Assembly: GCF_001458355.1 (NCBI RefSeq)
Contig: NZ_CYSA01000007.1
Coordinates: 126,501 to 190,500 of the forward strand
DNA: 64,000 nucleotides
Origin: Thalassovita gelatinovora
GTDB taxonomy: Bacteria > Pseudomonadota > Alphaproteobacteria > Rhodobacterales > Rhodobacteraceae
Direction of reading: 5' to 3'
The position numbers were made by a program, and so were the translations under genes. The notes beneath the pieces are model-generated. The model saw nothing but the letters and a program-made list of their open reading frames with translations. It was not told where the DNA came from and made no database searches. This document shows, piece by piece, positions 58,300-59,276 of the stretch. The number at the start of each line of letters is the position of its first letter. Position 1 is the stretch's first letter.

Positions 58300-58463
58300 G
58301 CCGGATTCCTTCAAACTCAGGCCTGTGACTTAGTCCTTTTTGTTGGAATTTGAAACATTTCCCGGGCAAAGAACACGTCCGCGTGAGCGAATTGAAGCAA
58401 AACTTGTCAGGGTCGTCATCCAACCGCATGTCTATATCAACAAAAGGCAAGGAGGCCGTGACC

Positions 58464-59150
58464 ATGGGACAGCTCAAGAAAATTCTGCTGGTCGACGATG
58501 ATGACGATCTGCGCGAAGCGTTGAGCGAACAATTGGTGATGACCGAAGATTTCGACGTGTTTGAAGCCGATAGTGGCGTCGAAGCGATGAAACGGATCAA
58601 GGAAGGGATTTACGACCTGCTGATCCTTGACGTCGGATTGCCCGATACCGATGGCCGCGAGTTGTGCAAGCTGATGCGCAAGCAGGGGGTGAAAAGCCCG
58701 GTGCTGATGCTGACCGGTCATGACACCGATGCCGATACCATTCTGGGGTTGGATTCGGGGGCCAATGATTACGTGACCAAGCCGTTCCGGTTCCCGGTTC
58801 TGTTGGCGCGAATTCGCGCCCAGTTGCGCCAGCATGAACAATCCGAAGACGCGGTATTCCAGTTGGGCCCGTATTCGTTCCGCCCGGCGCAGAAGATGTT
58901 GGTGACCGAGGAGGACAAGAAAATCCGCCTGACCGAGAAGGAAACCAATATCCTGAAATTCCTCTACCGGTCGTCCGAAGGCGTGGTGCCGCGCGATGTG
59001 CTGCTGCACGAAGTTTGGGGGTATAATGCCGGGGTGACCACCCACACGCTGGAAACCCATATCTATCGTCTGCGGCAGAAGATCGAACCCGATCCGTCCA
59101 ATGCCCGTCTCCTGATCACCGAAAGCGGAGGCTACAAGCTGGTCGCGTAA
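58464..59150 (+). CDS. OmpR-family response regulator
   Basis: 228 residues. Receiver domain: acidic patch LLVDDDDDL, phospho-acceptor Asp56 in LLILDVGLPD, Thr in MLTGHD and Lys in YVTKPF. C-terminal winged helix: IRLTEKETNILKFLYR, LLHEVWGY and THTLETHIYRLRQKIEPDP. No histidine kinase lies beside it. ATG 58464 follows AAGGAGG; the frame is open back to 58350 but lacks support. The stop codon is only three bases from an FNR-type box. Confidence 0.93.
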   Translation: MGQLKKILLVDDDDDLREALSEQLVMTEDFDVFEADSGVEAMKRIKEGIYDLLILDVGLPDTDGRELCKLMRKQGVKSPVLMLTGHDTDADTILGLDSGANDYVTKPFRFPVLLARIRAQLRQHEQSEDAVFQLGPYSFRPAQKMLVTEEDKKIRLTEKETNILKFLYRSSEGVVPRDVLLHEVWGYNAGVTTHTLETHIYRLRQKIEPDPSNARLLITESGGYKLVA

Positions 59151-59153
59151 AAG

Positions 59154-59167
59154 TTGATCAGGATCAA
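59154..59167 (+). promoter_or_regulatory. perfect FNR/FnrL box
   Basis: TTGAT-CAGG-ATCAA matches the FNR/FnrL consensus TTGAT-N4-ATCAA exactly. Its centre (59160.5) lies 41-45 bases before the predicted start of the small RNA, the class-II activation position, with TAATAT at 59194-59199 as the -10 element. Confidence 0.7.
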
Positions 59168-59202
59168 GGAAACCGAGCCGTGTTCGAGTTACTTAATATG
59201 TA

Positions 59203-59276
59203 TACCGTCGCATAAGCGGTCATCTTATGCACCTCCCTGTTGGACTGCCCGGGCTTGAAGCCCGGGCGTTTTTTTT
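59203..59276 (+). ncRNA. candidate oxygen-responsive small RNA
   Basis: From the expected start (about 59202-59206) the sequence forms a hairpin GCATAAG-CGGTCAT-CTTATGC (59210-59230), a single-stranded ACCTCCCTGTTGGACT (59231-59246) with an anti-Shine-Dalgarno core, and a strong terminator. This is the layout of trans-acting sRNAs. An FNR box precedes it, so induction at low oxygen is expected. No ORF with start and ribosome site fits in it. The alternative is a read-through 3' UTR of the response regulator. Confidence 0.5.
59247..59276 (+). terminator. strong intrinsic terminator
   Basis: GCCCGGGCT (59247-59255), loop TGA, AGCCCGGGC (59259-59267), then G and eight T. The T-run reaches the stop codon of the convergent dioxygenase. 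Confidence 0.92.

Follow-up and report, generated by a model that had tools for sequence, protein, structure and literature searches.

SorX in the 3' UTR of cenR

Which small RNA is encoded at positions 59154–59276 of the Thalassovita gelatinovora DNA analysed here (64,000 nucleotides, hereafter the window), and from which promoter could it be made? The initial annotation had described this segment as a free-standing, FNR-controlled sRNA gene. It had rightly recognised an sRNA, and all elements it named were found, but its statement that no named family exists was wrong: the element is SorX of T. gelatinovora, a member of Rfam family RF02784, and lies in the 3' UTR of cenR. RF02784 and one tRNA are the sole Rfam families reaching their gathering score in the whole 64-kb window. 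The features of the locus are as follows:

58373–58387, + strand: CenR-type direct repeat ACACGTCCGCGTGAG, probable autoregulatory site, upstream of the response-regulator gene
58464–59150, + strand: OmpR-family response regulator (PF00072 and PF00486), orthologue of R. sphaeroides RSP_0847 (ompR-1, also named CenR); it hosts the sRNA
59154–59167, no strand assigned: FnrL box TTGATCAGGATCAA, centre at 59160.5, −41.5 from the predicted +1 at A59202, placed by comparison
59190–59195, + strand: −10 region TACTTA in the class-II register derived from comparison, T−12 being T59190 and A−11 being A59191
59194–59199, + strand: TAATAT, the −10 of the initial annotation, 4 nt off the comparative register, a possible alternative
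59202, + strand: predicted FnrL-dependent start (A), one base before nucleotide 1 of the SorX model
59203–59273, + strand: SorX sRNA, match to RF02784 at 73.1 bits (gathering score 46.6), model positions 1–73
59210–59230, + strand: 5' hairpin (7 bp) in which the family shows compensatory changes
59231–59244, + strand: single-stranded anti-Shine-Dalgarno seed ACCTCCCTGTTGGA, of which CCTCCCTGTTGGA is kept across loci
59246–59276, + strand: intrinsic terminator by structure prediction, with a 10-pair stem, a 3-nt loop and T8

FnrS of enterobacteria is an FNR-activated, stand-alone anaerobic sRNA, and Rfam includes a family for it. Nowhere in the window was a gathering-level match to the FnrS family found. 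The similar logic speaks for an unnamed FNR-controlled family of the FnrS kind, but FnrS belongs to a different family, is not a 3' UTR product and has the logic alone in common with SorX. The gathering-level match to RF02784 refutes the unnamed-family reading, which retains practically no probability. Moreover, the gene neighbourhood is the same as in R. sphaeroides, for which the authors of a ChIP-seq study report that the sRNA, under its former name RSs2461, has no sequence similarity to FnrS (PMC4263372).

The response regulator shows 86% identity to the gene that lies ahead of SorX in locus L139 (SorX at 2,598,225–2,598,299), which we take as R. sphaeroides 2.4.1 because the published 5' end of SorX is 2,598,224 (PMC6238624). 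Its stop codon occupies 59148–59150, the FnrL box begins 4 nt later and SorX follows from 59203, so that the element forms the 3' UTR of the regulator gene. The annotated absence of a coding gene on this strand is thus correct inside 59154–59276, but the RNA is not a free-standing gene: it belongs to the 3' UTR of cenR, and in R. sphaeroides SorX is processed from the cenR mRNA. Papers on SorX call RSP_0847 ompR-1; in PMC9275681 it is named CenR, an essential regulator, and the main text of the latter paper never mentions SorX, sRNA or FnrL.

Table 1 of the latter paper lists R. sphaeroides RSP_0847 with ACACGAGCGCGTGAG. Repeat words upstream of the regulator recur in relatives, namely GCGTGAG in 40/93, ACACGAG in 35/93 and ACACGTC in 31/93 loci. 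TGAAACA (TTGAAACATTT type) was observed in 82/93 loci at most 180 nt before the regulator start, near the CenR-like ACACG..GCGTGAG repeat. Simple patterns of the RpoH consensus occurred upstream of cenR in 1, 2 and 3 of 93 loci versus 2.4, 0.4 and 0.9 in shuffles. These patterns show no clear enrichment, and the published RpoHI/HII control is therefore not recovered from the sequence.

The perfect 7-bp hairpin of the initial annotation is present (arms GCATAAG at 59210–59216 and CTTATGC at 59224–59230), as is its strong terminator, with stem positions 59246–59255/59259–59268 and T8 at 59269–59276. Among 23 SorX sequences double-sided changes were found in 6 of the 7 pairs of the 5' hairpin and in 8 of 16 predicted pairs overall. 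The proposed unpaired anti-Shine-Dalgarno stretch, ACCTCCCT at 59231–59238, is single-stranded in the centroid structure, while the minimum-energy structure has a few extra pairs around it. The fold of the RNA part beats 200/200 shuffles (z −3.0). The seed CCTCCCTGTTGGA is unchanged in 149/161 loci, a preselected count, as loci with more than 3 seed mismatches (18/194) had been left out beforehand. The full-length model match, the location in the 3' UTR of the RSP_0847 orthologue, the hairpin, the single-stranded CCUCCC seed and the terminator are all the same as in SorX of R. sphaeroides.

Of 394 family genomes, 315 (314/393 genera) contain an RF02784 match at E ≤ 1e-9, and in 311 the match exceeds the gathering score. 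Some genomes contain two or more matches, which derive at least partly from SorY-like loci that match as well. The family does not show a terminator conserved without box, hairpin and seed, the pattern that the initial annotation had named as contrary to its proposal: hairpin, seed and terminator are kept in most of the family, and the box together with the −10 in about one third of the loci examined.

FnrL box and putative promoter layout

In a class-II layout the box is located at −41.5 and the −12 position lies 29.5 nt past the box centre. The perfect TTGAT-N4-ATCAA box that had been annotated, TTGATCAGGATCAA, has this distance to the predicted +1, with a −10 at the fixed offset, and an FnrL gene is present in the genome (NF045989, 469.7 bits). 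TAATAT, to which class-II spacing had been ascribed, is indeed there, but its first base lies 33.5 nt past the box centre, not 29.5 nt. No sigma-70 −35/−10 pair was found at the promoter region, as expected for a class-II promoter. The idea of FnrL control holds up better than that of a new family.

The box alone is not significant within the window, since at least one perfect box occurred in 10 of 100 shuffles (one observed, 0.11 expected). The genome contains 12 perfect boxes. At 7 of the remaining 11 boxes we inspected 8 proteins encoded alongside; these include a ccoN-type oxidase subunit, cytochrome oxidase subunit I and a CydC-like protein, which are typical of oxygen control, and others without an obvious oxygen role, e.g. 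TldD and glutamine amidotransferase. An RNA hairpin formed by the box was rejected, as 59154–59200 shows no folding advantage over shuffles (z −0.44).

We consider it probable, with odds of roughly three in four, that SorX in the 3' UTR of cenR has two sources, RNase E cleavage of the cenR mRNA and a class-II FnrL promoter of its own. On the one hand RNase E would cut SorX from the cenR mRNA, as others have shown for R. sphaeroides. On the other hand a short primary transcript would arise from the promoter inside the 3' UTR: at low oxygen FnrL, an iron-sulfur protein, would bind the box at −41.5, stand in for the missing −35 and activate transcription from about A59202, giving a primary 5' end close to that of mature SorX. 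The RNA would then pair via ACCUCCCUGUUGGA with ribosome-binding sites and block translation, plausibly that of uptake transporters among others.

Conservation of box and −10 across loci

To the top-scoring SorX matches we added the 80 best named regulator relatives, which yielded 194 fetched loci with the regulator and 14 without. Loci with a SorX seed at ≤260 nt were kept (176, with 18 left out), and 161 remained after removal of near-duplicates. Between cenR and SorX a perfect TTGAY-N4-RTCAA box is present in 45/161 loci and a box with at least 9/10 matches in 60/161. As controls we used the 150 nt upstream of cenR (0/94 perfect, 1/94 at ≥9/10) and the 150 nt downstream of the sRNA (3/161 and 7/161). 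An earlier set of 151 loci from the same pool gave 43 perfect boxes and 58 at ≥9/10, compared with 0.07 and 1.9 in dinucleotide shuffles.

The distance of the box is constant to SorX but not to the stop codon of cenR. Its centre is located 71–73 nt before the seed in 33/60 loci, 77–79 nt in 12/60 and elsewhere in 15/60, so that in 45/60 it lies about 41.5–43.5 or 47.5–49.5 nt before nucleotide 1 of SorX. A TA exactly 29.5 nt past the box centre was found in 42/60 loci, compared with an average of 2.8 at the other 51 offsets, and the hexamer at the class-II offset has at least 3 matches to TATAAT in 38/60 loci versus 15% at other offsets. The fixed distance and the TA at 29.5 nt together point to a class-II layout. 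In a logo of 52 loci T−13 occurs 41 times, T−12 45 times and A−11 43 times, and +1 is most often A (27/52). In L009, the nearest relative, the box is perfect and the −10/start region is identical at 24/25 positions, but only 8/21 positions of the 21-nt spacer are kept.

SorX itself is already known, as is binding of FnrL at its locus in one species, R. sphaeroides. What the comparison adds is a conserved class-II layout with a start predicted at or just before nucleotide 1 of SorX, together with its patchy distribution and the loci that leave no room for it.

A box at the 9/10 level is missing in 101/161 loci. Fewer than 70 nt separate stop codon and seed in 26/161, which leaves little or no promoter room, and a box occurs in only 2 of these. 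The 161 loci fall into 55 with a box at the right distance, 5 with a box elsewhere, 22 without room, 20 with a CTTATTGTTGCC-type motif, a class that was defined after viewing the sequences and without a shuffle control, and 59 others. Boxes with 8/10 matches are present in 16 loci, R. sphaeroides included, 6 of them 71–73 nt before the seed; boxes of this grade are about as frequent in shuffles (17.6/151). When box presence was mapped on a quick cenR gene tree at least 37 changes were required, compared with 40–52 (mean 45) for 100 label shuffles. This weak signal of inheritance may reflect either fast turnover or a noisy single-gene tree.

FnrL homologues were detected in 344/394 family genomes, so a missing FnrL does not in general account for a missing box. 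Among the 9 genomes without a detected FnrL, some loci of which may be SorY-like rather than linked to cenR, 8 have no box within 110 nt upstream of the seed, and the ninth, G121, which is 84% complete, carries a perfect box. These counts bear on the identity of the regulator. It is improbable that the box serves another member of the Crp/Fnr family, of the CrpK, Dnr or FixK type, because an FnrL gene is present in the genome and in most genomes of the family, the box is missing in those 8 of 9 genomes (few and not significant), and an FnrL ChIP-seq site is located at SorX in R. sphaeroides. Such a regulator would agree with the 5 Crp/Fnr-like genes over the Pfam cut-off in the T. gelatinovora genome, although the ORF at one of them, L207, looks GntR-type, and with the similar binding determinants of CrpK and FnrL in R. 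sphaeroides (PMC4263372).

Other sequences in the promoter slot

In 20/161 loci the slot between regulator and SorX is filled by another conserved element, CTTATTGTTGCC(N)GAATC (at most 4 mismatches), often with a TATAT-like box next to it. These loci include L193, L107, L094, L173, L166 and L109, and the motif is mostly located 89–107 nt before the SorX seed. A pattern resembling ECF-sigma promoters, GGGAAC-N14-19-YGTT, is present in the gap of 5 of the 101 box-less loci (L013, L061, L073, L089, L160; 0.12 in mononucleotide shuffles).

The FnrL box is missing in L015, L016, L019 and L020, which belong to the genus of the window, and an extra inverted repeat around CCTCCCTCC precedes SorX in these loci. 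The repeat reads ATCAATGGC...GCCATTGAT in L015 and L016 and has diverged in L019 and L020; its loop holds a second anti-Shine-Dalgarno stretch. CCTCC stretches between regulator and SorX were likewise seen in L066, L074, L081 and L104. In L105, L113, L149, L021, L065, L060 and L195 SorX abuts or nearly abuts the stop codon of the regulator, leaving no room for a promoter, so that processing is the sole obvious source of SorX in those loci.

SorX and FnrL in R. sphaeroides

In R. sphaeroides SorX is a 75-nt sRNA that RNase E releases from a 116-nt precursor (PMC6238624). An RpoHI/II promoter drives its co-transcription with RSP_0847, and both singlet oxygen and superoxide induce it (PMC3320616, Table 2); it has been recovered with Hfq, represses potA, and is cited in reviews as an oxidative-stress sRNA processed from a 3' UTR. 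An FnrL site was mapped by ChIP-seq to the putative RSs2461 promoter; the effect of this site was not established because the sRNA was off the array (PMC4263372). The passages of papers that name both SorX and FnrL make no link between them, the original SorX study lying outside this set.

The R. sphaeroides box, TTGCGTGAGATCAA at 2,598,148–2,598,161, matches at 8/10 positions and overlaps the stop codon of the regulator. Its left half, TTGCG, is the same as that of the hemN site TTGCGcaggATCAA in the FnrL ChIP-chip table (PMC2908626). TATAAA starts exactly 29.5 nt past the centre of TTGCGTGAGATCAA, from which we predict a class-II start at 2,598,196. Neither of the published 5' ends, 2,598,182 and 2,598,224, equals this position. 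The 5' end of the 116-nt pre-SorX (2,598,182) was rejected as an FnrL start, as it lies 27.5 nt past the box centre and not 41.5 nt. Compared with the window, where a perfect box lies at class-II distance and the predicted start nearly coincides with the mature 5' end, the box of R. sphaeroides is weaker and 28 nt further upstream of SorX, and the published work describes processing.

These published data, including the lack of an established regulatory effect in the 2014 ChIP-seq study, and the loci with little or no promoter room would fit a model in which SorX is only processed from the cenR mRNA and FnrL or a relative occupies the box without driving transcription. We regard this as unlikely, since it leaves unexplained both the −10 at the fixed 29.5-nt offset in 42/60 loci and a box distance fixed to SorX rather than to the cenR stop codon.

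The published inducers of SorX, singlet oxygen and superoxide, are the opposite of anoxia and count against activation at low oxygen. They would suit repression of SorX by FnrL at low oxygen, or an FnrL roadblock to read-through from cenR under the same condition. Activation, however, is what a layout with the box at −41.5, a conserved −10 and no −35 points to, and we hold repression or a roadblock to be very unlikely here. Some R. sphaeroides genes are repressed by FnrL, as indicated by minus signs in the ChIP-chip table (PMC2908626).

Alongside the preferred reading, with its two sources of SorX, an evolutionary picture may be drawn that we consider evenly balanced between right and wrong. 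SorX would be a fixed effector RNA behind a fast-evolving promoter slot, occupied by an FnrL class-II promoter in about one third of the loci examined, where the RNA would act, similarly to FnrS, as a low-oxygen brake on the translation of selected mRNAs including those of uptake transporters, by a CTTATTGTTGCCNGAATC element, or by nothing where SorX can only be processed. If so, some genera would obtain SorX by processing and others by independent transcription. If many genera use the FnrL promoter, SorX would exemplify an sRNA that shifts between processing and a promoter of its own, and it would join the CenR, RpoH/singlet oxygen and FnrL circuits, which have so far been studied apart, CenR being an essential envelope regulator and FnrL responding to oxygen limitation.

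Candidate seed targets and related sRNAs

The seed sequence confirms the annotated complementarity to ribosome-binding sites. The complement of 13 nt of the seed occurs with at most 1 mismatch at 8 places in the genome: SorX, one SorX/SorY-like locus and 6 others. One of these 6 belongs to a gene for a BMP-family ABC binding protein (L271), with a 12-nt seed complement at its ribosome-binding site, 6 nt before the ATG, which makes it the best candidate target in this genome. Conservation of this candidate was rejected, as no relative at 1e-60 was found in the other 60 genomes searched. For potA pairing we considered 6 PotA-like candidates, of which only the start region of L256 reached a shuffle rank of 0.045, uncorrected for multiple tests.

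Searching 198 genomes with TCCAACAGGGAG-N3-10-ATG gave matches in at least 116, many among the matches listed being the antisense of SorX/SorY-like genes. From the matches listed we chose by eye 30 sites unlike sRNA antisense. Five of the 30 lack an ORF of 90 amino acids and may in part be sRNA antisense after all. The 25 sites with an ORF of at least 90 amino acids comprise 18 parts of transporters and 7 other genes (nitrilase, fasciclin, a response regulator, a PF13769 protein, cytochrome c', alanine dehydrogenase and Ku). One permuted control pattern matched 6 sites in the same 198 genomes, and all 4 with an ORF of at least 90 amino acids were again transporter parts. A seed-specific transporter regulon is therefore not established, the common bias belonging to ribosome-binding sites of the AGGGAG type; it is the number of sites (at least 25 versus 4), not the transporter bias, that speaks for the seed. 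For the initial suggestion that the RNA represses aerobic genes no support was found: the reported target is potA, and the seed-complement sites are mostly those of transporters, with the bias that the control shares.

Anti-Shine-Dalgarno seeds like that of SorX are also found in SorY (RF02651) and in the alphaR8 sRNAs (MmgR/suhB, Caulobacter SisA-D), the loci and promoters of which differ from those of SorX. Three SorX loci score at most 33.7 bits with the SorY model, the gathering score of which is 111. SisA-D are sibling sRNAs that share one 10-mer and differ in their expression patterns. In rhizobia the anti-Shine-Dalgarno seeds of AbcR1/AbcR2 (alphar15) silence transport mRNAs including those of ABC transporters; unlike SorX these sRNAs have the seeds CUCCUCCC and UUCCCCUC, and size, locus and controls differ as well.

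The genome of T. gelatinovora contains a second SorX/SorY-like sRNA with the identical seed CCTCCCTGTTGGA, at L221:741-826 (G000:C3:138742-138825, − strand). This locus matches RF02784 at 47.9 bits, the SorY family RF02651 at 55.9 bits, which is below the gathering score of 111, and suhB/mmgR weakly. Antisense signatures like that of L221 recur in many genomes of the family.
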